DNA of 64,000 bases from Clostridia bacterium (lineage in GTDB: Bacteria; Bacillota; Clostridia; Oscillospirales; CAG-272): assembly GCA_017399305.1 (NCBI GenBank), contig JAFQDK010000031.1, forward strand, positions 1-64,000, given 5' to 3'. Below are positions 9,744 through 59,139 of the stretch, one piece after another. Position 1 is the stretch's first letter; each line of letters begins with the position of its first letter. The notes beneath the pieces are model-generated. The model was not told the DNA's origin. It ran no database searches and was given only the letters and a program-made list of their open reading frames with translations. The position numbers and the translations under genes are program-made.

Positions 9744-10610
9744 TTATGATTCTGTATAATCCGATGGCGCAATGCCGTAATACTTTTTGAATACTCGTGA
9801 GAAATAGCTCGTGCCCGAAAAGCCGAGGTAGTCGGCAGTCTGGCTTACGTTCATTGATGTTGATGAAAGGAGATATGCTGCGTGCCTCATACGAAGGTCG
9901 AGAATGTAGTCGTTTATCGTCGTATGCATGTGCTTTTTAAAAATTCGCATGCAGTATTGCTTTGACATATTCATGTTCTTGCATATATCGTCAAGCGTTA
10001 TGGGACCTGTATAGTTTTCATTGATATATGCAAGTATCTTGTTTATCTGCGGCGGAAGTGAGTCGTCTGAGCGGAACCGCTCACAGTATGCCTGCGAAAT
10101 GTGAAACATTATTTCTGAGAACTGAATAGCCAATAAAAGCTGTTGTTTACTTTCATAATTTATACGTGTGCTAAGACATTTGCGTATAAGCGTGTCCACG
10201 TTCTGAGCCTGAGCGCCGAGTGAAATTTTATAGTCGAAAAACAAGAGGGTATCATCCCCTTTTATTTTTGTAAGACCGTATGTAGGTCTGCCATACGGTA
10301 CAACATCAAAAGGGACTATTTCTTCTGTGCTTTTCTCACTTTCGGATAAAGCACCGTCAAAGTGGAAAAAAGTATATTCGCAAGGCTCCTGTGCGATAGG
10401 AGAATACATAGTGTTTGCAGGGACAAGCGCAATGTCGCCTTTTTTGTATGTGTACTCTTCGCCGCCTATTATAAAACGGCAGTTTCCGCGGTGAAAAAAC
10501 ACAAGTATATTTACAGGCAGACGTCTGCCGCTGTGACTCCATCCGAGTTTTTCGTTCACTTTGCCTGTCATGCTGACAAACGGAAGCTTGGAAAATTTGT
10601 ATGCGAGCAT
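9744..10610 (-). CDS. AraC-family transcriptional regulator, divergent from the surface-protein operon
   Basis: Encodes 288 residues from the ATG at 10610, which has AAGGGAG upstream; a longer frame to 10655 has no such site. Residues ~20-150 form the cupin-like ligand-binding domain (including HRGNCRFIIGG) and residues ~185-288 carry two helix-turn-helix units (around ITLDDICKNMNMSKQYCMR and DYLGFSGTSYFSRVFKKYYG). It lies head to head with the operon that starts at 10835, so it is the obvious candidate regulator for that 15-kb unit. Co-transcribed with the HAD phosphatase 2 bases downstream. Ligand is unknown but likely the oligosaccharide handled by the operon. Confidence 0.88.
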   Translation of the reverse strand: MLAYKFSKLPFVSMTGKVNEKLGWSHSGRRLPVNILVFFHRGNCRFIIGGEEYTYKKGDIALVPANTMYSPIAQEPCEYTFFHFDGALSESEKSTEEIVPFDVVPYGRPTYGLTKIKGDDTLLFFDYKISLGAQAQNVDTLIRKCLSTRINYESKQQLLLAIQFSEIMFHISQAYCERFRSDDSLPPQINKILAYINENYTGPITLDDICKNMNMSKQYCMRIFKKHMHTTINDYILDLRMRHAAYLLSSTSMNVSQTADYLGFSGTSYFSRVFKKYYGIAPSDYTES

Positions 10611-10727
10611 AGCTATGTTCTCCCTTCGGTATTTTATACAAATATTATTATACATATTGCTTTATAAAACGCAACAGAAAAATCGAAATTAGTTTCATAT
10701 TTTAAAACAATTTTACACCATAGTGTA

Positions 10728-10757: not shown

Positions 10758-10834
10758 AATATTGTAAAACATTTGCAAAAAAAGATTTTGTTTTTAAAAA
10801 TAATTGACAATTTTGACAAGGAAGGGTGCATATT

Positions 10835-12805
10835 ATGGTACTTCAGACTAAAAATTTGAGTTTTGCTGTTGATGAAAACGGTCAGAATGCAGGTTTCATT
10901 ATTACCGACAAAGAAGATGCGGCTGTCCGCACGTCAGACTATTTCCGTCTTATTCTCGACGACGGTCTTCGCACCGAGATCCCGATTATGTCAAGCAAGC
11001 AGACAGGCGTTGCCAAAATGGTTGGTGACAAACTTGTAATTACATATGATAAACTCGTAAGCGAGTATGGCGACACTTATGACGTTAAGTTCACTGTTAC
11101 GGTTGAAATTGAGAATGGTATGCTTAAATTTACCCCCGCGGTAAAGAACAATACCAAGGATGTACGCATTAATGAGTGCTTCTGTCCTCTTGCAGACTTC
11201 AATGAGCTTTACGGAGAAGAGAAGGATGATATCGTTTACTTCCCCAACGGTCTTGGTACAAGAGTTGAGAACCCCTGGAAGTTCATGAAAGATATGACTT
11301 CTGTATGGTATCAGCATGATGAGTATGAAATCTTCTGGCACTATCACTACCCCCGCGCAACAATGGGTTGGTTCGGTATTGAGTCAAACGGTCACTTCCT
11401 CTATGTAGGCAGACATGACGAAAAGGCGCGTCACTGCTTTATGACTATGAAACAGCGCATCCATGCAGAGCCGCTCAACCTTATGGTTGGTATCGACCAT
11501 TTCCCGATGGCTCGCCCCGGCGAAGAACTTGAAATGCCTCCCACCGTGCTTGGCATTCTCGATGGCGACTGGAGAGCCGGTGCAGACTTCTACCGTGCAT
11601 GGGCTGACAAGACCTTCTTCAAGGTTACCAAGAAGCACGATTGGGTTAAGAACATGACCGGCTGGCAGAGAATCATCATGCGTTCTCAGTACGGCGAGGA
11701 CTACTATAAGGCAAGCGACCTTCCCAAGATTTATGCAGCGGGTGCAAAGCACGGTATTCACACAATCTTCCTCTTCGCATGGTGGAAGGAAGGTATGGAT
11801 AGAAACTATCCTACGTATCAGGAGCCGTATCCGGGCGCATTCAAAGAGCTTTCCGACAATATCAAGAAGGTTCAGGATATGGGCGGTCACATCATTCTCG
11901 AATGTAACTGTCACTTCCTTGATCCTAAGAATCCCTATTACAAGGAATTCGGCGATGAGGTTAAGATCATTGACATCAACGGCAACGAGATCCGCCCTGC
12001 ATTCGTATACCCTGGCAGAGGCGAGTTCCGTGCAACCTATGGCAAGCATCAGTTCCCGATTTGCTGTTCAGGTACAGAGCGTTGGAGAAATCAGGTTCTT
12101 TCACAGCTTAAACAGATGGGTGACCTCGGTGCAGACTGCGTATTTGCAGACTGCTTCTGCGGCTGTCCTTATCAGCCTTGCTTCAATGACCGCCACGAGC
12201 ACGGCGCACGTGTAGACGAGGAGTGGGTTGGTCACCGCAAGTTCTTTGAGTCGGCTGTTGAGTATTGTGATAGCGTGGACAAGGTGTTTGCAGGTGAGGT
12301 CGTAACAGACGTTGCTGCGGCTTACACTCAGTTTATTCACGGCCTTGTAAACGTTGACTTTGCTATTAAGAGCAATCAGTTCCCGGCACTCTTCCGTTAT
12401 ACATTCCCAGAGGTTATCACAACCGAGCGCGGTATCCGTGATGCAGAGGGCTCATCACCTAAGCAGATGAGAGCAGCTCTCACCACCGGCGTCCGTCTTG
12501 ACTGTGAACTTTATGTTTGCCGCCGCGACATCGGCTGTGACGAGGGTTATGCAAAGATGTGTGAGGAGTATTCACATTATCTCAATAAATATTCCGAATT
12601 CTACTTTGACGGTTTGTTCACTGTTATTGATACTTCAAAGCTTCCTTACTACGTAAAGCGCGGCGAGTTCTACAATGCTGATAAGACAAAGGTTCTCCGC
12701 GTGCTTTACAATGCTTCAAACGATGCAGTTGATGCATGTGGCGTAACTCTTGACGGCGATTCACTTCGCTTTGATGTGTTTGACGTAAACGAGTATAATA
12801 AATAA
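10835..12805 (+). CDS. Cytoplasmic glycoside-hydrolase-like protein (DUF6259 type)
   Basis: Encodes 656 residues from the ATG at 10835 (GAAGGG upstream). There is no signal peptide. The N-terminal ~200 residues look like a beta-sandwich of the type found before alpha-galactosidase-like barrels; the middle (~240-520) has the alternating strand/helix pattern of a TIM barrel with conserved Trp/Asp/Glu positions (FLFAWWKEGMDRNYP, HIILECNCHF, GADCVFADCFCG, FAGEVV). A small C-terminal beta domain ends the protein. This layout resembles DUF6259/GH-clan-D-like proteins; Asp in FADC and Glu in AGEV are candidate catalytic acids. It probably cleaves a sugar imported with help of the binding protein encoded 13 bases downstream. 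First gene of the operon; exact substrate unknown. Confidence 0.7.
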   Translation: MVLQTKNLSFAVDENGQNAGFIITDKEDAAVRTSDYFRLILDDGLRTEIPIMSSKQTGVAKMVGDKLVITYDKLVSEYGDTYDVKFTVTVEIENGMLKFTPAVKNNTKDVRINECFCPLADFNELYGEEKDDIVYFPNGLGTRVENPWKFMKDMTSVWYQHDEYEIFWHYHYPRATMGWFGIESNGHFLYVGRHDEKARHCFMTMKQRIHAEPLNLMVGIDHFPMARPGEELEMPPTVLGILDGDWRAGADFYRAWADKTFFKVTKKHDWVKNMTGWQRIIMRSQYGEDYYKASDLPKIYAAGAKHGIHTIFLFAWWKEGMDRNYPTYQEPYPGAFKELSDNIKKVQDMGGHIILECNCHFLDPKNPYYKEFGDEVKIIDINGNEIRPAFVYPGRGEFRATYGKHQFPICCSGTERWRNQVLSQLKQMGDLGADCVFADCFCGCPYQPCFNDRHEHGARVDEEWVGHRKFFESAVEYCDSVDKVFAGEVVTDVAAAYTQFIHGLVNVDFAIKSNQFPALFRYTFPEVITTERGIRDAEGSSPKQMRAALTTGVRLDCELYVCRRDIGCDEGYAKMCEEYSHYLNKYSEFYFDGLFTVIDTSKLPYYVKRGEFYNADKTKVLRVLYNASNDAVDACGVTLDGDSLRFDVFDVNEYNK

Positions 12806-12818
12806 GAGAGGTAAAAAT

Positions 12819-14315
12819 ATGAAAAAAGCATTAGCTTTACTCCTCGCGTGCCTTATGATATTGCCGCTGATGATGGCGTGCAACAACGACTCTCCCGATG
12901 TTACGGGCCAAGGTGCAGAGACTACAGCTTCTGTTGCAGAAGATGAGAACAAGCCCGACCTTCCCACTCCTGAGGAAATCGGCGATATCTCGGGCGATTT
13001 TCACATTCTTGTTGCAGGTAACTGGGCGTGGAATGACTATGAGTCAGACGGAACCGAGGGCACAGTTATTGACTCTGCAATCTATCGCCGCAATCAGTAC
13101 ATTAAGGAAAAGTACAATGTAGATATCACAAATGAGGATATTGTAAAGTACTCTTCTGCGATGGGCTCCGGCGATGGATACAAGAAGATATACAACTACT
13201 ATATGTCCGGCGACGATATGTACGGTGCCGCAATGATTGGTACCTATGACGTTGCAACTCTTGCATACAATGGATATATTCACGACCTCAATGATATTCC
13301 TTATCTTGACCTTAGCAAGCCGTACTGGGACCAGCGTGCAAACGAAGACCTCTCCATGAACGGCAAGATGTATTACACCACCGGTGATATATCTGTTTCG
13401 GATAACCGTTCCACATACGTTATGTTCTTCAGCAAGAACATGGTCGATATGTACGATCTTGATAATCCCTATGACCTTGTTCGCGAGAATAAATGGACAT
13501 TTGACAAGTTTGCCGAGATGGTAAAGACCGTTGGCACAGACGAGAATCAGGACGGTATCTATGATAAGAATGATACCTTTGGTCTTATCACTCCTACCGA
13601 TACACACCTTGCTATTCTGTCTGCTGCTGATGAGCGTATCAGCGCAATCAACGAGAATGGCGAAATAGAGCTTACGTTCTACAACGAGAGAATCGTAAAT
13701 CTTTATGACAGGTATCTCCAGGTTGTAGGTGACCATTCTCACACATATAACTATCAGTACAGCTATGTTACTGGCAAGAACGGCCTTGATTCTACCAATG
13801 AAGAGCGTGTAAGCATGTTCAACAACAATCATGTGTTGTTCTATTCTCACACTATGTTCTATATGGACTATCTTCGTGATATTGAGAGCGATTTTGGCAT
13901 TATTCCTTATCCTAAGTATGATGAGGCTCAGGAGAAATACGGCAACCTTGTTTCTGCATGGCATTCACAGTTCCTCTGCGTGCCTGAGAGCGTGCAGAAC
14001 CTTGAGCGCACAGGTATCATTCTTGAGGAACTTGCATATCAAGGCAAACAGCTCCTCACTCCTGCATACTACGAAAAGACTCTCCACGGTCAGTATGTAC
14101 GTGATGAAGAAAGCTCTGAAATGCTCGATATCATCTTTGCAAATCTTGTATACGACATTGGTATTTATTACAATATCGGTACTTACAAGGATCAGCTTAC
14201 ATCGATTGTAAGAAACAATCAGAATTTCACTACCATATATGAGACATACCGCCTTGTGGCAGAATCCAAGATCAAGGCAATCAATGAGTTCTTTGCAAAG
14301 AACAATGCTCAGTAA
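12819..14315 (+). CDS. Extracellular solute-binding lipoprotein (carbohydrate ABC-type)
   Basis: Encodes 498 residues; ATG at 12819 follows AGAGGT. The N-terminus is a lipoprotein signal with the lipobox LMMAC, lipidated Cys21, followed by an acidic, Thr/Glu-rich linker. The remainder shows the two-lobe pattern of family 1 substrate-binding proteins (for example NKWTFDKFAEMVK after a loop, DENQDGIYDKND resembling a calcium loop, then aromatic-rich segments). Such proteins capture oligosaccharides at the membrane for an ABC importer. No permease or ATPase gene is nearby, so it must share a transporter encoded elsewhere or serve as sensor. Lies 13 bases after the glycosidase-like gene and 22 bases before the SGNH gene. 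Confidence 0.82.
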   Translation: MKKALALLLACLMILPLMMACNNDSPDVTGQGAETTASVAEDENKPDLPTPEEIGDISGDFHILVAGNWAWNDYESDGTEGTVIDSAIYRRNQYIKEKYNVDITNEDIVKYSSAMGSGDGYKKIYNYYMSGDDMYGAAMIGTYDVATLAYNGYIHDLNDIPYLDLSKPYWDQRANEDLSMNGKMYYTTGDISVSDNRSTYVMFFSKNMVDMYDLDNPYDLVRENKWTFDKFAEMVKTVGTDENQDGIYDKNDTFGLITPTDTHLAILSAADERISAINENGEIELTFYNERIVNLYDRYLQVVGDHSHTYNYQYSYVTGKNGLDSTNEERVSMFNNNHVLFYSHTMFYMDYLRDIESDFGIIPYPKYDEAQEKYGNLVSAWHSQFLCVPESVQNLERTGIILEELAYQGKQLLTPAYYEKTLHGQYVRDEESSEMLDIIFANLVYDIGIYYNIGTYKDQLTSIVRNNQNFTTIYETYRLVAESKIKAINEFFAKNNAQ

Positions 14316-14337: not shown

Positions 14338-17070
14338 ATGAAAAAGTTTTTCACTTTAGCACTGGTGCTCCTGTTTGCATTTTCCCTTGTTTTTGCGGTA
14401 TCTGCCGCAAACAACACTGTATACGTAAAAGACGGAGGAACCGGAAACGGTTCTTCCGCATCTGCACCGGTCGGCACCCTAACAGCGGCTGCTAAGGCAC
14501 TTTCAGGCAAGGGCGGTACAATAGTGCTTTGCGGCGATACTACAATTTCCGCAATCACTACTATCCCTGAGCAGTCCGGCGATGTTATAATCACCGCTCA
14601 GAACGGAGCAAAGCTTGTTGTCAAGAGCCGTTTGCAGTTTGCAAAGAATACAAATGCAAACACTGTTACACTTGACGTTCCCATGGACGTGCCCACCGAG
14701 GCATCGTGGTATATGTTCGGCGGATATAACAACATCGTGTTCACCGAAAACAGTGTGATGACACAGAGCGGCGGAGGCGGCATCCACTTCTATGGCGGTG
14801 TCAACGCAAAGGATGCGGCATCCATTGATGACTGCATTGCCACGCTTCCTTTTTCCATTACTGTAAATAACGGTAACTTCCTCACCTTCAACGGCGGTTC
14901 ATTCCGTAGCGCAGGAGACATTTACATCGGCTCTATCGCCGCTCCTGTAACAGTTACCATAAACGGCGGTACATTTGGTACCGTAGGCGATTACAGTGAT
15001 GCGCTTTCAGCTATTAAAACATTTGTTTGTCCTTTCTCAATAAGTGGTATGGGATTTGTAGCTGATGATGTTAACCTTACCATAAACGGCGGTACATTCA
15101 ATGCACCTCTTTACATCTCCGGCAGAATAGGCACTACTCATTCTCCAGCACAGAATGTTTCAAAGAAAATTGCAACCGATGCAAAGTATTACGCTCAGGA
15201 CGGTGATGTTAATATCACCATCGCAGGCGGTACGTTCAACGGCGGTGCAGTCTGCGATACTTATGTTGACGCAGGTTATTCCCGTCTTATGCGCGGTGAC
15301 TATACCGTAAATGTTACAGGCGGTACATTCAAGGACGGCACAGTATTTGATGCAACACAGGTTAAGGCATATACAGGTGAGAACAAAAAAGCGACCATCA
15401 CATATACCGAAAATCTTGGCATCACTGCAAAGCGTTTTGATGTAGTAAACGGTAAGACTGCTACATATAAAGAGCCTACCCGTGTAGCGTTCATCGGTGA
15501 CTCTATCACAGAGGGACATTCATCGGGTAATCCTTTGCTTTACTCTTATCCTGCACAGTATCTCGCACTTGAACTTGCGGCAGGAAATGATGTTATCGTT
15601 TCTGACCTCGGTGTAAGTGCGTCGGGTATGCTTCCTTCCACTAAGTATTATTATCCCGAAATGCTTCCCGCACCGCTTGCACTTGGCGAAGTGGATGCTG
15701 ACATCTATTTCTTTGCGCTTGGTACAAATGATGCTTTTTCAGCAGGTGCTTCAAACGGTACTTATGAACATTTCTACGATGAGTACAAGACTTTTATCAA
15801 GGCTTGTGGCGACAATGCCGATACCGATGCAGTATATGTATCATCTGCACTCTTCCGCGGTCGCGGAGTTGGTCCATACAGCATGCGTGCTGCAAACGTT
15901 ATGCGTCCTTTGCAGGAGAGAATTGCAACCGAGCTTGCCGCACTTGATGCGACTAAGTATTACTTTGTAGACCTATACGCACTTACTATTGATGAAGTTT
16001 TTGCTGAAAAACTCTTCACAACGGATAATCTTCATCCTCATGCAGACGGCTATGCGATAATGGCACAGGATGTATACAATGCAGTTCACAAGGATGTGTA
16101 CGGCGTTGACAACTTTGAAATGAGCGATGTTTACATCTCTTCAAGCGGAGCAGAGTACGGCTCAGGTACAAAGAATGACCCTGCAAGCTCGCTTTCACTT
16201 GCACTGTCCAAGTGCGCACCCGGTGCAACTATTCATGTAGTTGGCGTTTTCAACCATGATACCACAGTGGCTATCCCCGAAGAACTCGGAACTATTACTC
16301 TCAAGGGCGAGGGTACGGGTGCTGCTATCAACTTCACTGCTGACGCAACCTTCCGCATTGCAAGCAACCTTAAGGTTGACAATCTTGCTATTACGACTGC
16401 AAGCGGCAAATATGTTGCGATATTCGGCGAGTACCACAACGTGACTTTCACTGAGAGCGTTACCACAAGCGGCGACGTACAGTTCTATGCAGGTCGCCTC
16501 GTTCGTGAAGACAGAAATCAAATGGATGTGTACACCACTGCTACCTATGACACTGTAGAAACCGCTTCAAGCGATGCTGATGTAACAGTAAACATCCTCG
16601 GCGGCACTTTCACGGCACTTGCCGGCGGCAACCGTCGTTATGCATCTCATTCTCCTTATGGCACATACAGCGGCAACATGGTGTTTAATGTAGGCAAGAA
16701 TGTTACCGTTACATCTGCTACAAATTCAGGCATTGTAGGCATGAACTACCTTACAGGCAGTGTCACGGCTAATATTAACGGCTGGGGAACAGTTGCTATT
16801 AAGGAAAATATGCGTCTTGGCTCAATGCTTGGCGATATTACCTATAACCGTAGAGAGAACGCAGGTAAAGTAACTCTCAATATCGCAAGCGATGTTACCG
16901 CAGATGTTGTATATACCTGTGATATCAACGCAGATGATGTAGTGAATGTAAAGGATGTGCTTTCTGTTCTTACATGTCTTGTGGACGATGAAAGTGTATC
17001 CACCTTCTACGAGGCGGAGAAGCTTTCGCTTCTTGATGCACTCTTTATACTAAAGAAACTCGCAGCGTAA
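14338..17070 (+). CDS. Secreted SGNH/GDSL esterase with beta-helix domains and C-terminal dockerin
   Basis: Encodes 910 residues; ATG at 14338 after AAGGAG. Residues 1-23 are a signal peptide. Residues ~25-375 and ~585-860 are Thr/Asn/Gly-rich beta-helix-like domains that begin with VYVKDGGTGNGSS. Between them sits an SGNH hydrolase: block I GDSITEG (catalytic Ser389), block III GTND (Asn464), block V DNLHP (Asp563, His566). The last ~50 residues (from Asp862) form a dockerin with one clear calcium loop (DINADDVVNVKD) and a degenerate second half. SGNH enzymes deacetylate or de-esterify polysaccharides, so an accessory carbohydrate esterase in a cohesin-dockerin complex is likely. Third gene of the operon. 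Confidence 0.88.
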   Translation: MKKFFTLALVLLFAFSLVFAVSAANNTVYVKDGGTGNGSSASAPVGTLTAAAKALSGKGGTIVLCGDTTISAITTIPEQSGDVIITAQNGAKLVVKSRLQFAKNTNANTVTLDVPMDVPTEASWYMFGGYNNIVFTENSVMTQSGGGGIHFYGGVNAKDAASIDDCIATLPFSITVNNGNFLTFNGGSFRSAGDIYIGSIAAPVTVTINGGTFGTVGDYSDALSAIKTFVCPFSISGMGFVADDVNLTINGGTFNAPLYISGRIGTTHSPAQNVSKKIATDAKYYAQDGDVNITIAGGTFNGGAVCDTYVDAGYSRLMRGDYTVNVTGGTFKDGTVFDATQVKAYTGENKKATITYTENLGITAKRFDVVNGKTATYKEPTRVAFIGDSITEGHSSGNPLLYSYPAQYLALELAAGNDVIVSDLGVSASGMLPSTKYYYPEMLPAPLALGEVDADIYFFALGTNDAFSAGASNGTYEHFYDEYKTFIKACGDNADTDAVYVSSALFRGRGVGPYSMRAANVMRPLQERIATELAALDATKYYFVDLYALTIDEVFAEKLFTTDNLHPHADGYAIMAQDVYNAVHKDVYGVDNFEMSDVYISSSGAEYGSGTKNDPASSLSLALSKCAPGATIHVVGVFNHDTTVAIPEELGTITLKGEGTGAAINFTADATFRIASNLKVDNLAITTASGKYVAIFGEYHNVTFTESVTTSGDVQFYAGRLVREDRNQMDVYTTATYDTVETASSDADVTVNILGGTFTALAGGNRRYASHSPYGTYSGNMVFNVGKNVTVTSATNSGIVGMNYLTGSVTANINGWGTVAIKENMRLGSMLGDITYNRRENAGKVTLNIASDVTADVVYTCDINADDVVNVKDVLSVLTCLVDDESVSTFYEAEKLSLLDALFILKKLAA
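14434..14457 (+). repeat. Coding-region hairpin with GNRA loop (copy 1)
   Basis: GGAGGAACCG / CGGTTCTTCC form a 10-bp stem (one G-T pair) around a GAAA loop, 97 bases into the SGNH-dockerin gene, within the codons for the DGGTGNGSS motif. A related, perfect hairpin lies at 21768-21791. Confidence 0.5.
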
Positions 17071-17138: not shown

Positions 17139-20100
17139 ATGAAAAGACGTTTTAGCATAATGCTTGGTCTTATCCTTGCATTTACACTTATGCTTGCACT
17201 TGTTGCTTTTGCGGCTGATAATACCGTTGTTTACATCAAGGATGGCGGCACTGGCGACGGTTCAAGTCCCGAAGAGGCAACAAGCACTCTTACTGCAGCG
17301 CACTCATATCTTGACCTCAGTCAGGATTGTACAGTAGTAGTGTGCGGTCCCTATACTCAAAAGGTTACTTGGGTATGGAAGGGCGGCAACTATGACGGAA
17401 GTGTAACATACACATCCGTTTATGACGGTGTTGACTACCGCAAGACTGCGGGTGCTGTTTACCAGTTCAATGCGGCTCGCTTTGTATGCTTCGGCGAAAC
17501 AAAGTTTGAAAATATGGACTTTGTTGCGCTTGGAACCAATCTTCTTGTTGTAGGTCAGTTTAACCCCATAACTGTCGGTGAGGGTGTTACAATGACCGGC
17601 TCGCAGATGAAAGGCGGCAATATCAGTACAGCCTTTTGTCTCCTCGGCGGATATCAGAGCGGTCAGAGCTCTCCTCCTACCTCTGGCACTGAAGAGGCAA
17701 ACATTACGGTGCTTTCCGGCTCAAAGATGTATATTGTGCCTTTCAGCCGCAGCATAAATGGCGACTTTACAGGCACAGCCAATATTAAAATCGGCGGCAA
17801 TGCAAATGTAAGCGTTCTTCACCTTTCTGCCGCAGGTCCTGCAGGCGTTACGACCGGCGATGTGAATGTTGAGATTACCGATAATGCGTATATCGACGTT
17901 GTTTACGGCGTTACAAGTGTAACAAAGGTTGGTGCAATTGATATTACATGGAAATCCGGTACCATAAACGATTTTCAGTGGGTATGTAAGTATACACCTG
18001 CGGCAACGATTGAGCATCTTAAAGAAACTTCACTAAACGTCACTCCCAAGGCAAAGGCACAGGACAACTACAACATCATTGCGGCAAACTTTGATAAGGT
18101 GACTGATATCAAAGATGATCCCACGCTTATTAAGGACAAGCTTTCAAACCAGACTGTTATCTATGTCAAGGATGGCGGTAACGGCAACGGTGCATCTGCA
18201 GATAAGGCACTCGGAAGCCTTGACGATGCATTTGATTCGCTTGACCTCACAAAGGATTGTACAATTGTAATTTGCGGTCCTTATACCCAGAATGGCACAT
18301 TCAATTATGAAAAGCCGTATACAGGCTCTGTAACATATACATCTGTTTACGGCGGCACCGACTATCGCACCACCGGTGCTGTATATCAGTTTGCGGCAGT
18401 TCGCTTTATCTGTAACGGTGCAACAAAGTTTGAAAACATAAAGTTCTCCGCAACAGGCAACTATTTCCTCGTAGTAGGTAACTTCAATCCTGTTACAGTA
18501 GGTGAGGGCGTTGTAGTTGACGCTCCCAAGTTTACAGGTACAAGCATTGCAAAGTCATTTGCAATTATCGGCGGTTATCAGGATAACGTAAACGATCCTC
18601 TGATCGCAGATGACCGTGATACAAACATCACCGTTCTTTCGGGTTCAAAGATTTATATTATTCCTTTCACCCGTGAGATGCTTGGTGACTTTATGGGTAC
18701 AGCAAACATTAAAATCGGCGGCACTGCTGAGATAGGCGTGCTTCACGGCTCTTCGGCATATCCCGATGGAATCAAGGTCGGCAAAGTAAAGATTGAAATT
18801 GCCGACAATGCAAAGATTGCTAATTTCTACGGTTGTACTCAGGTTACCACTGCAGATTCATATGAGTTTATCTGGAATGGTGGCGATATTACAAACTTCC
18901 AGTGGAATTGCTCCTCTACTCCTGCAGCATACCTCACCGTTATGAACGGTACAGTTCTTCGTGCTTCTGATGCAGTAAAGGCAAAGGCAAATTATGCTAC
19001 AATCGCTGCAAACTTTGACAAGGTCGTCGGCTTAACAGAAGCTGTTACTTTCGGCAACAGACTCGTATCTCCTACAGTTACAAGCGACTATGCGGCTGCA
19101 AGAGGACTTTTCCTTGCGGGACTTGCACAGGGCTATGACACCACAGGTACAAACTTCGGTCTTGAGGATAATCTCACAAGAGTGCAGACCGTTGTTCAGG
19201 TAATCCGCTTCCTCGGCGTTGAAGACGAGGTTAAAGCAGGCAACTTCCCGCATCCTTTCACTGACGTTCCTGCGTGGGCAAACAACTATGTTGGCTACGC
19301 ATATGCAAATAACATCACATCGGGACGCAGCGCAACCAAGTTTGATCCCGACGGCGTTGTTGATGAGATGCAGTTCCTTACCTTTATGCTTCGTGCAATA
19401 GGATACAGCGACAAAGACGGCGACTTTGTATGGAATGATCCCTTCGCTTTTGCATACAGAGTAGGACTTTCCAACGCACAGATCGAGCATCGCACTTTCA
19501 ACCGCGGTGACGCGTTCCGCACATCATGGCGCGCAATTTTTGCAACTGCAAAGAATAAGAAAGCAGTTTATGACAACCTTATCGCTGACGGCGTATTCAC
19601 AATGGATACTCTCAAGGCGGCAATGACAGAGGCTGATACCGTGGCAGCTCCCGCAAAGACAAGCTCTGCTGTTATTGAAAACGGCTATTATGTAATAAGC
19701 GTTGAGGATTATAAGGACAAGACAATGGCAGGCTTTATGGCGCAGTTCACAGGCTTCCTTTCCGGCTATGAGTTTGCAAGAAACTCAGACGGTTCACCTA
19801 AGATTGCAATGCCCGACTCATGGTTTGACCTCTGTAACGGACCTTACGCGGCGCATAACCCCAACAATGTTCACGGCGACAAGCTTCTCCTCAATGAGGA
19901 GACAGGTATCTGGGAAGTATGGAATGATGACGACTTCTCAATAGACATTCTCAATCAGTATATTCTTAAGAATACCTACGCACAGTACGGCACCGTAACC
20001 TCAAAGGCTATTACCGATGGTTGGGTTAAGTACAACGTATACGACATGGGCGGCGGCCATCGCCGTCAGGGTGCATACGGTCTCATGAGTAAATACGGCT

Positions 20101-21644
20101 ATCTCCCGATTTACACAGGTAACAAGGAGTTTGGCGGTCTTTACAACGTAAACGGCGAACCTTATATCGCAAACGAAACTCTCGGTATGAGCGCGGCTGC
20201 AATGCCCTCACTTGCAATTGATCAGGCTGAGCTTTTCGGCGGTGCAACTTCTGACCGTGACCCTATTCGCTGGCTCAAGTTCTTCACTGCACTCATCTCC
20301 ATGGCATACGTTGAAGATGATATTCCCACTATGATGCGTGAGGCACAGAAGATTCTTCCCGAAGATTCATGGCAGTATCAGTGTATTGACGAAGCTTTCC
20401 GTCTGCATGAGGAATTCCCCGATGACTGGCGCCGCGCAGTTGCACACATTGAGCGCAACAACCGCCAGAAGCATTATGACCTTGACAATTACAACGGTGA
20501 AACCTCGGTTAACTGTTCAATGATTCTTGTCGGACTTCTCTACGGCGAGGGCGACTTCTACGAAACATGTAAGATCATCTCTCTTGCAGGTCACGGCGGC
20601 GACTCCACCACTCCCGTAGGACTCAGCGCAGTTGCAATTGCTTGCGGCTGGGAAGGAATTGATGCAAAGACCAGAGCAACCGTAAACGAAAAGGTATGGA
20701 AGGACGGCAAGGGCGTAGTAGTAAACCGTCCTATTAATGACGATCAGGACACATGGATGTACATGGCGGCACTTCCTGAGCGCATCTACATGGCAGATAC
20801 TCTCCAGATGTTCCAGGATAACTTTGAAAGCAACCTTATTGCAAACGGCGGTAAGATTGAAAACGGCAATTACTATATTCCTGTGACAAAGCTTGGCGAA
20901 GTAGAACAGATTTTTGTTGACGAGTTTGAGCATGCTTCGCTTGACGGCTATAAGACAAGCGGAACAGTAGAGATTTCCGACGGCTTCTCCGGCGAGTACG
21001 GTGTAAAGGTGAGCGGCGCAACTGCTGAAAGCGCACTCACAAAGACACTTACAGGTCTTACTGTCGGTGAGGATTACCGCGTAACCGCATTTATCAGCAC
21101 TGCCGCAGGCGCAACCGCAAACCTCTCTGTAAAGAGCGGCGATGAAAGCGTGCTTGTAACTGTTTATAACGAAACTATCTACGGCAAGCGTGAATTTGTA
21201 TTTACAGCAGGCGCAACCACTGCAGAGCTTAAATTCTATGTTCCTGCCGGAACTCCCTCTCACAGATATGGCATTATCGACGAGATCTGGGTTCTCCATG
21301 CAGATGAAAAGAGCGAGGGCACAGCGGCTATCGCGGCACCTACAGCTAACAATGCATACACCGGCAGATTTGATATTAATGTTGCTTCTAACGAAAACAA
21401 GGAAGTCATTCTCAAGCTTACATTTGCTAATAAGAATGCAGAAATACTCAATACCACTGTCAGAGTAAATGGCAGCTACTACGCAGGCGTTCCTTTCTAT
21501 AAGACCGGTGACAACGGTATGGGTATTGCGTATATTCCTGTGATTGCAAAGGATGCCACAAATTATACTGTTAATATCGACACAGGTAGTAAGACACTCT
21601 ATATCTACGGTGCAGAGCTTGTTACCGTAAGCGAAAGATGGTAA
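17139..21644 (+). CDS. Giant secreted SLH-anchored protein with ADP-ribosylglycohydrolase-like domain
   Basis: Encodes 1501 residues; ATG at 17139 after GAAAGGA. Order: signal peptide (1-25); two copies of a ~310-residue beta-helix-like domain, each starting with VYxKDGGxGxG (from ~residue 28 and ~346); SLH modules (~649-835, with FTDVPAWANNYVGYAYANN); an ADP-ribosylglycohydrolase-like all-helical domain (~850-1220); and C-terminal beta-sandwich domains (~1260-1501) like carbohydrate-binding modules. In the ARH-like domain the first metal motif appears as NDDD (929-932) and the second as GHGGDSTTP (Asp1155), lacking the usual second Asp of GGDxD. SLH modules bind pyruvylated secondary wall polymer, so the protein should sit on the cell surface. 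Paralogous to the next gene. Confidence 0.85.
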   Translation: MKRRFSIMLGLILAFTLMLALVAFAADNTVVYIKDGGTGDGSSPEEATSTLTAAHSYLDLSQDCTVVVCGPYTQKVTWVWKGGNYDGSVTYTSVYDGVDYRKTAGAVYQFNAARFVCFGETKFENMDFVALGTNLLVVGQFNPITVGEGVTMTGSQMKGGNISTAFCLLGGYQSGQSSPPTSGTEEANITVLSGSKMYIVPFSRSINGDFTGTANIKIGGNANVSVLHLSAAGPAGVTTGDVNVEITDNAYIDVVYGVTSVTKVGAIDITWKSGTINDFQWVCKYTPAATIEHLKETSLNVTPKAKAQDNYNIIAANFDKVTDIKDDPTLIKDKLSNQTVIYVKDGGNGNGASADKALGSLDDAFDSLDLTKDCTIVICGPYTQNGTFNYEKPYTGSVTYTSVYGGTDYRTTGAVYQFAAVRFICNGATKFENIKFSATGNYFLVVGNFNPVTVGEGVVVDAPKFTGTSIAKSFAIIGGYQDNVNDPLIADDRDTNITVLSGSKIYIIPFTREMLGDFMGTANIKIGGTAEIGVLHGSSAYPDGIKVGKVKIEIADNAKIANFYGCTQVTTADSYEFIWNGGDITNFQWNCSSTPAAYLTVMNGTVLRASDAVKAKANYATIAANFDKVVGLTEAVTFGNRLVSPTVTSDYAAARGLFLAGLAQGYDTTGTNFGLEDNLTRVQTVVQVIRFLGVEDEVKAGNFPHPFTDVPAWANNYVGYAYANNITSGRSATKFDPDGVVDEMQFLTFMLRAIGYSDKDGDFVWNDPFAFAYRVGLSNAQIEHRTFNRGDAFRTSWRAIFATAKNKKAVYDNLIADGVFTMDTLKAAMTEADTVAAPAKTSSAVIENGYYVISVEDYKDKTMAGFMAQFTGFLSGYEFARNSDGSPKIAMPDSWFDLCNGPYAAHNPNNVHGDKLLLNEETGIWEVWNDDDFSIDILNQYILKNTYAQYGTVTSKAITDGWVKYNVYDMGGGHRRQGAYGLMSKYGYLPIYTGNKEFGGLYNVNGEPYIANETLGMSAAAMPSLAIDQAELFGGATSDRDPIRWLKFFTALISMAYVEDDIPTMMREAQKILPEDSWQYQCIDEAFRLHEEFPDDWRRAVAHIERNNRQKHYDLDNYNGETSVNCSMILVGLLYGEGDFYETCKIISLAGHGGDSTTPVGLSAVAIACGWEGIDAKTRATVNEKVWKDGKGVVVNRPINDDQDTWMYMAALPERIYMADTLQMFQDNFESNLIANGGKIENGNYYIPVTKLGEVEQIFVDEFEHASLDGYKTSGTVEISDGFSGEYGVKVSGATAESALTKTLTGLTVGEDYRVTAFISTAAGATANLSVKSGDESVLVTVYNETIYGKREFVFTAGATTAELKFYVPAGTPSHRYGIIDEIWVLHADEKSEGTAAIAAPTANNAYTGRFDINVASNENKEVILKLTFANKNAEILNTTVRVNGSYYAGVPFYKTGDNGMGIAYIPVIAKDATNYTVNIDTGSKTLYIYGAELVTVSERW

Positions 21645-21659
21645 TTTCAAGGGGGATAT

Positions 21660-24600
21660 ATGATAAGTAATACCCTTCGCACGCTCAGGTTTATTGTTTT
21701 AACGGCAATCATTTCAGCACTCATGCTCTTCGCGGTATCGGCTGAAAACGTTGTATATCTTAAGGACGGAGGAACCGGTAACGGTTCCTCCCCTGACAGC
21801 GCTGTGGATACTCTTACTAAAGCGCATAATGCACTTGATCTCACCGCAGACGATGCAACTATCGTTGTTTGCGGACCGTATACTCAGTCCGTAAACTGGA
21901 TTTACGGTGCAGGTGAGTATACAGGCACTGTTACATTCACCTCAGTTTACGGCGGTGTTGACTACCGTGAGAGCGCAGATGCAGTATATAACATAGGTAA
22001 ATGCCGCTTTATGTGCCTTGGCAACAACAAATTCGAAAACATGAACATCAATTGTACAGGCGAGTACTGTCTGCTTGTCGGTCAGCATTATGATGTGACT
22101 ATCGGCGAAGGTGTTGTTATTACAGGAGAAAGTCTTCTCGGTACAGCAATTGCCAATTCCTTTACAATTGTCGGCGGATATCAGGAAGGCGTCAGCCTTG
22201 CTACTGCCGAAAGCACTGCCAACACTAATGTAACTGTACTTTCGGGTTCGTATCTTTACATAGTGCCGTTCTCACGCGGAATTGAAAACGGTAAGTTTAC
22301 AGGCACTGCAAATATCACTGTCGGCGGCAACGCAAATGTAAGCGTGCTTCACGGTTCTTCGGCAAATTCCGACGGTGTTACCCTCGGTAATGTTAAGGTT
22401 ACATTAAAAGACAGCGCAATAGTGGATAAGTTTTACGGTTGCACTGATAATGTCACTGTCAATTCTTATACTTTCAATTACAGCGGCGGCACAATCAATG
22501 AGTTTGATTGGGTTTGCCCACATACTCCTGATAAGGAACTCACCGTTACCGGCACAAAGAAACTCGTTGTTGGCGGCGATGTTGGCTACCATGCCCTGAT
22601 GGATGAGTTTGATACCATTTCGGGCGGTGACGTTGCATTTCTTAAGGATGGCGGCACAGGCGACGGCTCTAATCTTGCAAATGCGGCAGATACACTCAAA
22701 GAAGCACTTGCAAAGCTTGACCTTACAAAGGATTGCACAGTAGTGATCTGCGGTCCGTTTACGCAGACCTCGGATTTTGCATACGGTAAATTCTTTACAG
22801 GCAAGCTCACCTTTACCTCGGTTTGGAACGGTGTAGACTATCGCACTGTGGCAGGGGCAAACTGGCAGTTTGACGGCGAGAGATTTGCCTGCTATGGTGA
22901 CACAACCTTTGAAAATATAGACTTTGTTTCGCTTGGCGACAACTATACTGTTGCGGCTCAGCACCAGAAGTTTACCATCGGCGAGGGTGTAACCGTTAGC
23001 GGTGACAACCTCAGCGCTACCACACTTGCAACATCATTTTGTATCTTCGGTAGCTATGTAGGCGGATTCGGCAACCCGGTAGCCCTTAATAAGAATGATA
23101 TAAATGTAACAGTTCTTTCGGGCTCAAAAATTTATATCGTTCCATTCTCATATAATGTGCAGGGCACATACAAAGGCACTGCAAATATCACTATAGGCGG
23201 CAGTGCCAATATCGGAGTGCTTCATGGCTCATGCGTGGGCGCAACAGACAGAAAGCTCGGCGATCTTCGTGTTACTGTAAAGGATGATGCAATAGTTAAC
23301 CGTTTTTACGGTGCTACAAGTGAGAAAAATATAGTAAACTCTGTTGAGTTCTTTTTCGAGTCCGGCAGAATTTATAACTTCAAGTGGTCTACTTCCACAA
23401 GCACCGTGCCGAGCATAACAAATCCCACAGTGATGCGCGTAAGCGACAAGGCAATGGCATCGCAGTATTATGCGGCAATTGCCGGCAACTTTGATGTTGT
23501 GATAAGCTCGGCCGATGTTGACACCGATGTTGTACCGTCTGCCACTGCGGAAGAAGAAAAAGCAAGGCTTGATGCAATTGCAGGCTCAAGAGCATATACC
23601 GCTATAAGCTTTGCAAGCGGTGATGACAAGCCGCAGGTTTCGCTTAAACTCCCCACAAGCGGCGCAACAAACGGTAATCTTTATCGCATTGACGGGGACT
23701 ATATCATCACTTTACAGGCTGACGCAATCGGCAACGGACATATGGGCTTCGACCTCACCGAGGACGGAACATATATCTGCTCCGACACCGATTTTATCAC
23801 CTACGGTGATGTTGACAACAACGGCAGTATAAATGTTGTCGACACATTGCTTACGCTTAAGATAGTTCTTGGCGACAATACTATTGAAAAGGCGGCGGCA
23901 GATGTTGATGATAACCAGCAGATTACATTTATCGATGTGCTCAGACAGCTCAAGATGGTTGCGGCGGCTGATAAACCTGCTGAGGAGTTTACATTCAACC
24001 CCGACGACTACAATATCATCTCGGTAGACTCATATCTCGACAAGACAAAGCTCGGCTTTCTTTCTCAGATGGTCGGCTTCCTCTCAGGCTATGAGTTTGC
24101 AAGAGATCCCGTAACAAATCTCCCGATGCTTGCGATGGCTGACAGCTATTTTGAGATGTGTAACGGCGCATATGCAGATCCCAAGGAAATCAATTTGCAT
24201 GGCGACAAGCATCTTCTCAATGAGGAAACTGGCATATGGGAAGTATGGAACGACGATGACTTTTCAATAGATATTCTTGACCAGTATATTCTCCGCGACT
24301 CGTTTGCACAGTACGGTACACTTAATACCAAGGTCATCACCGATGACTGGTTAAAATATGATGTTTATGACATGGGCGGCGGTAACCGAGACATAGGTGC
24401 ATACGGTCTTATGAAGAATTACCGTTATCTCTCGGTATTCTCCGGCAACACTGAAATGTGCAACAATTTCAATGTAAACGGCGAGCCTTATATCGGTAAT
24501 GAAACTCTCGGTATGAACGCTGCCGGAATGCCTGACCTTGCGGTAGACCTTGCACACAATTTCGGTATGACCACATCTGACCGTGACCCTGTCGAGTGGC

Positions 24601-26039
24601 TCAGAATGTTTGCGGCGATGTACTCAATGGCGTACTTTGAAAATGATATACCCACACTTATCCGTACCGCACAAGAAGCGACAATGACAAAGGGTTCATG
24701 GCCTTATGAAGTAGTTGATGCTTGCTTTGAGCTTTATGAAAAACATCCTGACGATTGGCGTGCGGCTATAATTGAGGCAGATAAGATATTCCGCAGCTAT
24801 AACTATGATAATCCCAGCTACATGGGATGCACTTCAATAAACTGCTCGTTTATAATTCTCGGTCTGCTTTACGGTGACGGTGACTATTATGATACATGTA
24901 AGATTATTTCTCTTGCAGGTCACGGCGGCGACTCCACCACACCTACTGCACTTGGCGTAGTTGGTGTAATCACTGGCTGGGAAAACCTTGATACAACCTC
25001 AAAGAATATCATCAATACAAAGGTATGGCAGGATGGCAAGGGCATTATAGTAAACCGTCCGCTTGATCCTGACGGCTCATATGGCACATGGATGCACATG
25101 CAGGGCGCAGAGGAAAGATTTAAAATAAGTGACCTCATTGATATGTATCAGGCTAACTTCGAAAATCTGCTTTATGAGAATGGCGGCTTCAAGCTTAACG
25201 GAAATTATTATATTCCCAAGCAGACTATATCAAAGGTAGATACTGTTTACACCGAGCATTTTGAAAATGACGGAATTGCTGACTACAAAGTAAGCGGAGG
25301 CACTATTGCAAATGCTGCTGATCCGTTCATGGGTGCAAATGCACTTGAGCTTACCGCCGGCAACGGCGCAAGCACAGCATACAGAACCGTAAGTGGACTG
25401 ACTGTTGGTACAACTTATAAACTCAGCGCGTTTATTCGCACAGCCGATGGCGTTACCGCGCATCTGTTTGTAAGGGAGAGTGGCGATGACATTGCTGATT
25501 ATGTAACTGTACATGATTCCAATGTATACGTAAAACGCTTTACTGTAGGTGTAGGTGAAAACGATATGTGTTCGTATGTTAAGCGCGAGCTTGTATTTAC
25601 CGCAACTGCAGAAACCATGGAGATAGGTCTTATGCTTCCGACCGGTACAGTATCGGGCGGCAGTGCGGCTATGGATGCGATTGAGGTTATCCGATTCGAG
25701 GAAACTCAGGTTGCTGACGTTACGGTAAACGGTGCAAAGGATGAAAACGGCGCATACAGCGGACTTGTACGCTTCGACATTGACGGAGGCAGCAAAAAGG
25801 AAGCATGGCTCAAACTCACATATGCAAGTAATGCAACCGCACTTGAAAAGGCGTTCACTTGTGTGAACCGCTCGTGGCAGTCGAGAACCCCCATAGTTCC
25901 TACAAACGGCGGAAAGGTTACAATTTATATTCCTGTTCTTGTAAATAACGATACAAGCAATCTCATAACAATGTATTTTGACGGATATGATGTAACTATT
26001 CACGAGGCAGAACTCGTAATGCCACAAAGTCGATTTTAA
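21660..26039 (+). CDS. Giant secreted dockerin protein with ADP-ribosylglycohydrolase-like domain
   Basis: Encodes 1459 residues; the ATG at 21660 follows AAGGGGG. Order: signal peptide (1-28); two beta-helix-like domains (from ~30 and ~327, both starting near KDGGTGxGS); a short spacer; a complete two-loop dockerin (~715-768: DVDNNGSINVVD and DVDDNQQITFID); an ARH-like domain (~780-1150) with NDDD at 864-867 and GHGGDSTTP (Asp1091); and C-terminal beta-sandwich domains (~1180-1459). Collinear with the preceding gene except that the SLH block is replaced by the dockerin. A dockerin in the middle of a protein is uncommon. It probably docks to a cohesin scaffold; none is encoded here. Last gene of the operon, 15 bases after its paralog. 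Confidence 0.87.
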   Translation: MISNTLRTLRFIVLTAIISALMLFAVSAENVVYLKDGGTGNGSSPDSAVDTLTKAHNALDLTADDATIVVCGPYTQSVNWIYGAGEYTGTVTFTSVYGGVDYRESADAVYNIGKCRFMCLGNNKFENMNINCTGEYCLLVGQHYDVTIGEGVVITGESLLGTAIANSFTIVGGYQEGVSLATAESTANTNVTVLSGSYLYIVPFSRGIENGKFTGTANITVGGNANVSVLHGSSANSDGVTLGNVKVTLKDSAIVDKFYGCTDNVTVNSYTFNYSGGTINEFDWVCPHTPDKELTVTGTKKLVVGGDVGYHALMDEFDTISGGDVAFLKDGGTGDGSNLANAADTLKEALAKLDLTKDCTVVICGPFTQTSDFAYGKFFTGKLTFTSVWNGVDYRTVAGANWQFDGERFACYGDTTFENIDFVSLGDNYTVAAQHQKFTIGEGVTVSGDNLSATTLATSFCIFGSYVGGFGNPVALNKNDINVTVLSGSKIYIVPFSYNVQGTYKGTANITIGGSANIGVLHGSCVGATDRKLGDLRVTVKDDAIVNRFYGATSEKNIVNSVEFFFESGRIYNFKWSTSTSTVPSITNPTVMRVSDKAMASQYYAAIAGNFDVVISSADVDTDVVPSATAEEEKARLDAIAGSRAYTAISFASGDDKPQVSLKLPTSGATNGNLYRIDGDYIITLQADAIGNGHMGFDLTEDGTYICSDTDFITYGDVDNNGSINVVDTLLTLKIVLGDNTIEKAAADVDDNQQITFIDVLRQLKMVAAADKPAEEFTFNPDDYNIISVDSYLDKTKLGFLSQMVGFLSGYEFARDPVTNLPMLAMADSYFEMCNGAYADPKEINLHGDKHLLNEETGIWEVWNDDDFSIDILDQYILRDSFAQYGTLNTKVITDDWLKYDVYDMGGGNRDIGAYGLMKNYRYLSVFSGNTEMCNNFNVNGEPYIGNETLGMNAAGMPDLAVDLAHNFGMTTSDRDPVEWLRMFAAMYSMAYFENDIPTLIRTAQEATMTKGSWPYEVVDACFELYEKHPDDWRAAIIEADKIFRSYNYDNPSYMGCTSINCSFIILGLLYGDGDYYDTCKIISLAGHGGDSTTPTALGVVGVITGWENLDTTSKNIINTKVWQDGKGIIVNRPLDPDGSYGTWMHMQGAEERFKISDLIDMYQANFENLLYENGGFKLNGNYYIPKQTISKVDTVYTEHFENDGIADYKVSGGTIANAADPFMGANALELTAGNGASTAYRTVSGLTVGTTYKLSAFIRTADGVTAHLFVRESGDDIADYVTVHDSNVYVKRFTVGVGENDMCSYVKRELVFTATAETMEIGLMLPTGTVSGGSAAMDAIEVIRFEETQVADVTVNGAKDENGAYSGLVRFDIDGGSKKEAWLKLTYASNATALEKAFTCVNRSWQSRTPIVPTNGGKVTIYIPVLVNNDTSNLITMYFDGYDVTIHEAELVMPQSRF
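21768..21791 (+). repeat. Coding-region hairpin with GNRA loop (copy 2)
   Basis: GGAGGAACCG / CGGTTCCTCC make a perfect 10-bp stem around GTAA (a GNRA loop in RNA), 109 bases into the gene, over the same DGGTGNGSS codons as the hairpin at 14434. Confidence 0.55.
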
Positions 26040-26046
26040 TAAAAAA

Positions 26047-26105
26047 CAGCACCCGTATGGGTGCTGTCAGAATGTATAAAACTCGCCTTTTTAAAGGCGA
26101 GTTTT
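26047..26105. terminator. Double hairpin terminator at the end of the surface-protein operon, shared with lgt
   Basis: The first hairpin is CAGCACCC-GTAT-GGGTGCTG (26047-26066). The second (26078-26105), AAAACTCGCCTTT-TT-AAAGGCGAGTTTT, has A and T tracts on both sides and can terminate the plus-strand operon and the converging lgt gene. Confidence 0.85.
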
Positions 26106-26881
26106 TATATATTTGAGCGCTTTTTATGCTTTATTAATAATCTTATAGTAATACTTGTTGCCAATAGACCAATGCTTATCCATTGAGAAGTAGATAAAGC
26201 ACCGAAAATACCTCTTACACTATCGCCACGGAAGAATTCTGTGCAAAACCGCATTATTGCATATAATGATATGTATTTGCAGAGAATGAAAAATGGAGGG
26301 CGCTTGCGTTTGGCGTAGTGGAAAAGAAAAAGAGCAATTGCAATATCTAAGAGCGCTTCAAGCGGTTGAACAGGGAAGTGTCCAATATTACTTGCAAGTC
26401 CAAAAACAGAGTTTTTATAATAAATAGAAAAAGGACCGTAATACTCCATTCCATAGCAACATCCGGCAAGCAAACAACCAACGCGTCCAATCGCGTGACA
26501 TAATGGTAAGCATGGAACAACTATATCGTCAAACTCTGCTAATTTTGTACCGGCAACTTTTGCTCCGATAAATGCACCGCCGATTCCACCAATAAGTCCA
26601 CCGTAGAATACGATACCGCCGCTTGTAATAAACGAAAAATCACCGCTTTTGATAAACGATATAATCTGTGAAAAAGAAAAAGTAACGGCAATGTATAGCA
26701 AATTACCGCATAATATAGCTGATCCCAATGCAAATGCAGCGACAATTAAAACGTCTTCAAAACAAATTCCTTTTTTTCTAGCTTTTAAAGACGAGTATAT
26801 GATGGCTATCAATATCGCAAAAAACATGCAAAGACCGTACATCGGTATTGACAACCCGAATAGTGATAAAAACGGATACAT
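26105..26881 (-). CDS. lgt: Prolipoprotein diacylglyceryl transferase
   Basis: Encodes 258 residues from the ATG at 26881 (GAAAGGAT upstream). Seven hydrophobic spans and the family signatures are present: HAIGRVGCLLAGCCYG (residues ~128-143), the GG-I-FYGGL segment, and RFCTEFFRGD near the C-terminus. Lgt transfers diacylglycerol from phosphatidylglycerol to the lipobox Cys of prolipoproteins in the membrane, the first step of lipoprotein maturation; substrates in this window include the binding protein at 12819 and the Ltp-like protein at 46786. The protein is shorter than E. coli Lgt (291), as in other Clostridia. A DUF4190-like gene lies 63 bases upstream on the same strand. Confidence 0.9.
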   Translation of the reverse strand: MYPFLSLFGLSIPMYGLCMFFAILIAIIYSSLKARKKGICFEDVLIVAAFALGSAILCGNLLYIAVTFSFSQIISFIKSGDFSFITSGGIVFYGGLIGGIGGAFIGAKVAGTKLAEFDDIVVPCLPLCHAIGRVGCLLAGCCYGMEYYGPFSIYYKNSVFGLASNIGHFPVQPLEALLDIAIALFLFHYAKRKRPPFFILCKYISLYAIMRFCTEFFRGDSVRGIFGALSTSQWISIGLLATSITIRLLIKHKKRSNI

Positions 26882-26944
26882 GTTTATCCTTTCATATTGA
26901 AACTTGCCGATGCGGTATTCCACATCGGCAAGTTCGGTATTGAG

Positions 26945-59061: not shown

Positions 59062-59139
59062 AACAATCTTAAAACTGATTTGATTGACTTAACGGTATTC
59101 ATGTGATAAAATAATAATATTAATCTTTTGGAGGATAAC

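Follow-up and report, generated by a model that had tools for sequence, protein, structure and literature searches.

Internal dockerins are present in the C. thermocellum enzymes XynZ and XynY. Those known from Ruminococcus flavefaciens are active (PMC5301203). A single genome of Pseudobacteroides cellulosolvens encodes glycoside hydrolase family 10 (GH10) proteins of which some are cellulosomal while others carry a triple surface-layer homology (SLH) repeat (PMC5590126), and OlpA and OlpC have been described as monovalent anchoring scaffoldins (PMC3413522, PMC4045903). Already in print are enzymes of one family that bear a dockerin or SLH repeats within a single genome, dockerins at internal positions, and monovalent anchors built on a cohesin. 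The present analysis concerns two adjacent genes, P1 and P2, in a 64,000-nucleotide stretch of DNA (positions 1 to 64,000 of contig JAFQDK010000031.1, as a whole referred to here as the window) from a draft metagenome-assembled genome (MAG) of a Clostridia bacterium, G000, which is 63.7% complete by estimate. P1 and P2 are regarded as differently anchored surface forms of one ADP-ribosylglycohydrolase-like (ARH-like) core, in which the internal anchor probably originated in the fusion of two separately anchored neighbours.

Set against those reports, the locus resembles the GH10 case of P. cellulosolvens in that one catalytic family occurs in one genome with a dockerin or with SLH repeats. It differs in that P1 and P2 form a collinear tandem, share helix domains as well as a core, carry the anchor internally, have an ARH-like core and have relatives in a third, lipoprotein state. 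Like the internal dockerins of R. flavefaciens, that of P2 has further protein on either side; here, though, the paralogue has SLH repeats at this place and relatives have a lipobox. OlpA and OlpC find a likeness in single-cohesin proteins whose other part is SLH repeats in four sister genomes and a Cu-amine-oxidase-like domain in the window's genome; unlike OlpA and OlpC, the protein of the window's genome adds an N-terminal dockerin-like stretch, seen by reading and not reported by Pfam. As to the core, 21 of the 31 members scanned reach or exceed the cut-off of the ADP-ribosylglycohydrolase family PF03747, from which the present proteins differ in being secreted or lipid-anchored, in having a carbohydrate-binding-like C-terminal domain and, in P1 and P2, in having GGDSTT for GGDxDT. 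The literature searched, outside which most subscription journals fall, yielded no ADP-ribosylglycohydrolase with a dockerin and none treated together with glycoside hydrolases and polysaccharide utilization, and among the matches listed, judged by titles and the beginnings of abstracts, none described a dockerin/SLH alternation of this kind. Nor were a tandem internal swap, a lipoprotein third state at the joint, separate anchored neighbours or an ARH-like core met with there.

Tandem paralogues with different anchors

P1 and P2 lie on the same strand, 15 nucleotides apart, and are probably made together. Their parts are given below in window positions. The term helix stands for the beta-helix predicted in an earlier sequence-only reading of this DNA and is kept as a label only.

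17139..21644, + strand: P1, the SLH form, 1501 amino acids (open reading frame, Pfam, BLASTP)
17217..18053, + strand: P1 helix domain 1 (helix comparison and tree)
18147..18998, + strand: P1 helix domain 2 (helix comparison and tree)
19029..19685, + strand: P1 exchanged segment, residues about 631-849, three SLH repeats, the central one by Pfam
19686..20879, + strand: P1 ARH-like core, PF03747 at 26.0 bits, cut-off 26.2 (Pfam, alignment)
20901..21641, + strand: P1 C-terminal sandwich domains (GH101_dom-5 match below its cut-off; structure-sequence profile)
21660..26039, + strand: P2, the dockerin form, 1459 amino acids (open reading frame, Pfam, BLASTP)
21738..22559, + strand: P2 helix domain 1 (helix comparison and tree)
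22620..23489, + strand: P2 helix domain 2 (helix comparison and tree)
23505..24008, + strand: P2 exchanged segment, residues about 616-783, X-like stretch and dockerin (alignment)
23565..23789, + strand: P2 X-like stretch ahead of the dockerin (sequence comparison)
23802..23963, + strand: P2 type I dockerin, Asp/Asn ligands in each of its two calcium loops (Pfam, loop reading)
24009..25220, + strand: P2 ARH-like core, PF03747 (ADP_ribosyl_GH) at 30.8 bits against a cut-off of 26.2 (Pfam, alignment)
25221..26036, + strand: P2 C-terminal sandwich domains (alignment)

P1 begins with a signal peptide, after which come two helix domains, the SLH unit, the ARH-like core and the C-terminal sandwich domains. 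The sequence-only reading took the two proteins for collinear paralogues with homologous flanks, and alignment bears this out: BLASTP pairs nearly the full length of both (650/1535 identities, 42%, E 0.0), and the cores are 57% identical. Homology on the N-terminal side dwindles at about residue 630 of P1 and 615 of P2 and is back from Y850 and Y784, respectively, leaving a non-homologous stretch (about 631-849 in P1, 616-783 in P2) between homologous flanks. Pfam and alignment confirm that this one place is occupied by different attachment modules, SLH in P1 and a dockerin in P2; that both proteins might hold remnants of both modules finds no support, as Pfam at E up to 1 detects neither a dockerin in P1 nor an SLH module in P2. 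The tandem recurs in G004, with an SLH form followed by a dockerin form 14 nucleotides away, and in G001, where a dockerin form follows, after a gap of 7 nucleotides, an ARH-like gene truncated in its N-terminal part at the end of the contig.

In P1, Pfam places an SLH repeat at residues 706-746 (23.6 bits, cut-off 20.8); three repeats are read in all, the outer two from alignment only. A profile of helix plus SLH matched the SLH region of Sap among PDB sequences (E 2.3e-4) and the SLH region of an S-layer glycoprotein over 150 of 182 residues (E 7.8e-4). The P2 dockerin (Dockerin_1, residues 715-761) scores 21.0 bits on the whole protein, just below the cut-off of 22.9, and 27.9 bits, over the cut-off, in a six-frame Pfam search. 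Together the X-like stretch and the dockerin (residues 639-767) are 31% identical to a dockerin protein on another contig of the same genome (G000:C41).

The core of P1 and P2 is called ARH-like here, a putative ADP-ribosylglycohydrolase. We take the metal-site acidic motifs of that family to be TDD and GGDxDT. The first motif, counted by columns, is DDD in 30 of 33 alignment rows; the second is GGDSTT in both P1 and P2, with the second of the expected aspartates replaced. A family profile of the C-terminal domains matches the xylanase C structure 4xup, presumably a CBM22 (family 22 carbohydrate-binding module), and the C-terminal domain of several members is CBM_4_9 by Pfam. In the PDB sequence search the C-terminal and SLH parts were matched, and neither the helix nor the ARH-like core was. 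The helix domain has no match over the cut-off in Pfam or NCBIfam, and NCBIfam holds nothing over its cut-off for either protein.

Relatives and their anchors

The search for further family members with either module, which the sequence-only reading had proposed, has now been made. A profile of the core built from two rows was run against 295 genomes, drawn evenly from the larger number in the bacterial family, and gave 39 matches above 300 bits in 13 genomes, namely all six genomes of the window's genus and seven genomes of two other genera. Four short family fragments (G002:C44, G250:C170, G250:C120 and G004:C58) stand outside this set and the tree built from it. In a second collection, searched with two short patterns, 11 loci were found in MAGs titled Oscillospiraceae, Clostridia or Ruminococcus sp., some titles showing the source sample: goat, dairy cattle, roe deer or Lapin (rabbit). 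The window's genus occurs in herbivore guts; two of these MAGs are its members G004, from roe deer colon, and G002, from goat cecum.

On the N-terminal side of the core, nine of the 39 members carry SLH, four carry a dockerin, one is cut by a contig end and 25 have neither. Among these 25 others a lipobox pattern is passed by 22, whereas all 13 forms with SLH or a dockerin, which served as a control, fail it; the remaining three of the 25 were scored in the tree as one state with the rest. The Pfam scan covered 31 members; the other eight (700-723 amino acids, with the core motif near the N-terminus) were judged from sequence, and one SLH form (G001_C34) was counted though it falls below the Pfam cut-off. 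Lipoboxes, like the membrane anchors discussed below, are predictions from pattern and reading. Wherever the sequence extends that far, in 38 of the 39 members, the variable segment stops immediately ahead of the same core motif.

The internal anchor as a probable fusion joint

In the proposed ancestral state two neighbouring genes encoded a helix protein held by its C-terminus and an ARH-like lipoprotein held by its N-terminus. Their head-to-tail fusion, helix part leading, would leave a single anchor at the joint, serving both halves. The anchor would thus be internal because helix proteins were anchored at the C-terminus and enzymes at the N-terminus and the two were joined helix-first, as its position implies; the direction would be fusion rather than fission. 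At the joint stands either an SLH unit, which would bind a wall polysaccharide to which CsaB presumably adds pyruvyl groups, or a dockerin, which would bind a cohesin on a wall protein or adaptor.

The genes ahead of P1 in the window are as follows.

9744..10655, - strand: AraC-type regulator, conserved, beside the operon (neighbour comparison)
10826..12805, + strand: DUF6259 protein, conserved upstream gene (Pfam, neighbour comparison)
12819..14315, + strand: solute-binding protein, SBP_bac_8 below cut-off, lipobox by reading, conserved upstream gene (Pfam)
14338..17070, + strand: GDSL esterase-like protein (Pfam, sequence comparison)

Near the genes for AraC, DUF6259 and the solute-binding protein, the genomes G061, G194 and G113 have a lipoprotein ARH-like enzyme and a helix protein with a transmembrane anchor as two genes. 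The same operon position is held in the window, G004 and G003 by a helix-SLH-ARH fusion. In the window the GDSL gene stands between the solute-binding protein and P1, and in G004 AraC falls outside the stretch examined. Since the separate pairs occupy the position of the fused gene, the internal anchor is therefore best read as a fusion joint.

Adjacency of the two halves is found in a minority of the relatives. A separate helix gene lies directly downstream on the same strand in eight of the 23 unfused members for which this could be determined, two further ones running into a contig end. Seven of the eight helix proteins end in a hydrophobic stretch with a basic tail, which predicts membrane anchoring at the C-terminus; the remaining one, truncated at a contig end, has a Cu-amine-oxidase-like domain. 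Of the partner helices, five share 52-59% identity with a P1 helix, a level for which the other helix proteins of G000 reach no more than 43%, and three share 40-42%. Within the fused forms the number of helices varies, the G001 and G004 orthologues of P2 having a single helix that groups with helix domain 2 of P2 (96/95).

The tree built from the 39 cores, in which 25 of the 36 inner branches are starred, requires five changes of anchor, against a mean of 11.8 when states are shuffled. The P2 clade, from three genomes, is fully supported (100/100), and the dockerin state appears in at least two places, in that clade and in G003_C4, which has a dockerin before the core and no helix. The dockerin was gained at least twice. 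Three SLH forms of another genus (G226:C242, G155:C24 and G250:C139) are nested in the P1 clade (100/99), suggesting transfer between genera. Two long branches, G001_C34 and G001_C52, meet, and their placement is unsure.

Wall ligands and cohesins

SLH modules are thought to need a pyruvylated wall ligand. The window's genome has one match to PF04230 (CsaB; E 4.7e-38), and PF04230 is found in nine of the 13 genomes. SLH forms of the family co-occur with it, being present in eight of these nine and in none of the other four (Fisher p 0.007, with genomes treated as unrelated); three of those four have no SLH place of any kind. A broader proposal can be put forward tentatively: that the joint is fixed, and that lipobox, SLH unit and dockerin have been substituted there in evolution according to the anchoring ligand of the host, SLH only with CsaB, through repeated fusions of neighbours, the same rule also shaping other enzymes such as the GH43 pair on contig C42 described below.

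At least one cohesin over the cut-off is present in all 13 genomes. The cohesin proteins were read at eight of 30 loci, those of the other genera in part. Five proteins of sister genomes (G001:C75, G001:C100, G002:C12, G004:C65 and G005:C5) unite a single cohesin with two or three SLH stretches by Pfam, and are candidate monovalent wall anchors. The window's genome has one cohesin over the cut-off, situated behind the Cu-amine-oxidase-like domain (Cu_amine_oxidN1) of the protein with the N-terminal dockerin-like stretch. At G000:C49 1-1650 (L168) it also has a frame, truncated where the contig stops, in which two cohesin-like domains are combined with a C-terminal dockerin; the cohesin-like domains are called from a genus profile, and Pfam Cohesin reports none.

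Alternative explanations

An older fused gene could instead have been duplicated in tandem, the SLH unit of one copy then being replaced in place, through recombination, by an X-dockerin segment. Homology on both sides of the segment and the conservation of the tandem in G004 and G001 would fit such a history, and the helices of P1 and P2 fall within one unresolved group. In addition, a clade uniting P1 and P2 is not rejected by the approximately unbiased (AU) test (p 0.205), so that an in-place swap between the two keeps some probability; this result also weighs against the fusion reading. The unconstrained tree, however, puts three lipoproteins and an SLH form lacking a helix nearer to P1 than P2 is (81/78), and the AU test rejects a single clade of all N-terminally helix-fused forms (p 0.0025). 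The linkers point the same way: that before the P2-clade cores reads F-N/D-P-D/N-D-Y-N in all three rows, like those of two g1 lipoproteins of the genus (FDPADYN and FNPDEYN), and not like ENGYYV, found in four of the five P1-clade rows that reach it. We consequently lean towards separate fusion events for P1 and P2 rather than one, and judge in-place exchange to be rather unlikely. The sequence-only reading had spoken of the exchange of an internal module. Its different modules between homologous flanks stand, and the swap becomes one of two histories, the relatives mostly showing an N-terminal lipobox on the enzyme and, in some, separate helix proteins with a predicted C-terminal anchor.

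Two further questions concern what the dockerin does. That it is a relic, leaving P2 effectively secreted, is suggested by its whole-protein score of 21.0 under the cut-off of 22.9, and is nevertheless very improbable: the ligand residues D/D/N/D are kept at positions 1, 3, 5 and 12 of both loops (DVDNNGSINVVD and DVDDNQQITFID), the dockerins of P2 orthologues in two genomes reach 26.7 and 35.4 bits, both over the cut-off, and the window's genome has 55 dockerin places. A functional dockerin could, by way of a monovalent cohesin anchor resembling OlpA or OlpC, bring P2 to the wall that also receives the SLH form, the two anchors then being alternative routes to a single place; this account is compatible with fusion and given close to an even chance. 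In its favour are the cohesin-SLH proteins of G001 (two), G002, G004 and G005 and the Cu_amine_oxidN1-cohesin protein of G000 with its dockerin-like stretch; proteins combining Cu-amine-oxidase-like and cohesin domains are counted as non-SLH anchoring scaffoldins (PMC11557425), with OlpC as a case in point (PMC3413522). Against it, the window's own genome, incomplete as it is, yielded no cohesin-SLH protein, and the C49 frame with its two cohesin-like domains and dockerin is present there. P2 may thus arrive at the wall by an indirect route or become part of a small complex. The division between wall and scaffold drawn in the sequence-only reading is not borne out, since sister genomes encode cohesin-SLH anchors and both forms may reach the wall; the C49 frame may represent a scaffold.

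The preferred reading, in which P1 and P2 carry at their joint the anchor left by fusion of two neighbours, has several observations weighing against it. The 13 genomes are drafts, incomplete MAGs of 53 to 98% completeness. No helix gene lies directly downstream in 15 of the 23 determinable unfused members, and the three partner helices of 40-42% identity group with five other helix proteins of G000 (99/95). The helix tree gives no resolution around the fused helices, and the fused partner cannot be identified from it. Two members (G226_C211 and G250_C278) have a weak helix match (55-71 bits) C-terminal to the core while retaining the lipobox. In the other genus, the stretches examined around the SLH forms of G226, G155 and G250 contain none of the operon neighbours. 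Where the CsaB link is concerned, the four genomes lacking PF04230 come from two genera, and one of them, G117, 94% complete, has two SLH places (best E 2.4e-5), which argues against a strict rule. Finally, PF03747 is over its cut-off in all four dockerin forms and in two of nine SLH forms, and the SLH-form cores may have diverged from the PF03747 model. The earlier description of P1 and P2 as the same enzyme accordingly holds as far as homology of the cores is concerned, and not for a shared reaction, given this uneven reach of the cut-off.

Anchor alternation elsewhere in the genome

Anchor alternation recurs in the window's genome. Fifty-five dockerin and 39 SLH frames were placed (94 in all, some cut at stretch or contig ends, with one SLH place, C42:19885, lacking a frame in the stretches examined), and none has both modules. 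By simple thresholds 48 of the dockerins are C-terminal, three N-terminal and four internal, including that of P2. The internal dockerins on C42 and C12 follow an N-terminal repeat-like or helix-like stretch (by reading) and precede a C-terminal GH43 (by Pfam), and that at G000:C5 1970-5584 (L211) lies, by reading, between GLUG-like repeats and a solute-binding protein that continues into a GH10-like part.

Comparison of these proteins with one another at E 1e-8, with anchors masked, gave 79 pairs with different anchors and 195 with the same anchor, of which the best 40 of 79 and 25 of 195 were viewed, three closely. The top three different-anchor pairs are a GH43 pair on C42 (79% identity over 411 amino acids), P1 and P2, and a GH43 pair on C48 (43% over 607 amino acids); the alternation therefore recurs beyond P1 and P2. 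On C42 (5718-14024, L175) a GH43-SLH protein, a helix-SLH protein and a dockerin-GH43 protein with a long GLUG-like or helix-like N-terminal part are encoded side by side.

The two loops of the dockerins of P2 and of the C42 and C48 GH43 proteins are spaced by 31-33, against 28-30 in most of the 55, and the wider spacing possibly marks a second dockerin specificity class. A dockerin subtype common to the swapped pairs was considered and set aside, the spacing class having been noticed after the fact and the dockerin tree being unresolved.

Three further features of the genome may be recorded. The GDSL protein upstream of P1 has an N-terminal stretch resembling the helix domain and, by reading, a C-terminus resembling a dockerin whose second loop is degenerate, where Pfam detects no dockerin at E up to 1. 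Several proteins have a single SLH match near residue 95-136, namely those on G000 contigs C13, C25, C32 and C36 and a trypsin-like protein of the window (59128-61491). The gene adjoining P2 is the following.

26105-26923, strand opposite to P2: lgt (prolipoprotein diacylglyceryl transferase)

Implications

P1 and P2 offer a natural matched set, with a homologous core, different anchors and one operon, in which to ask what a dockerin adds over direct binding to the wall. More generally, internal anchors may mark the joints of two formerly anchored surface proteins. If the link to CsaB is true, the type of anchor would be predictable from the wall chemistry of the host.

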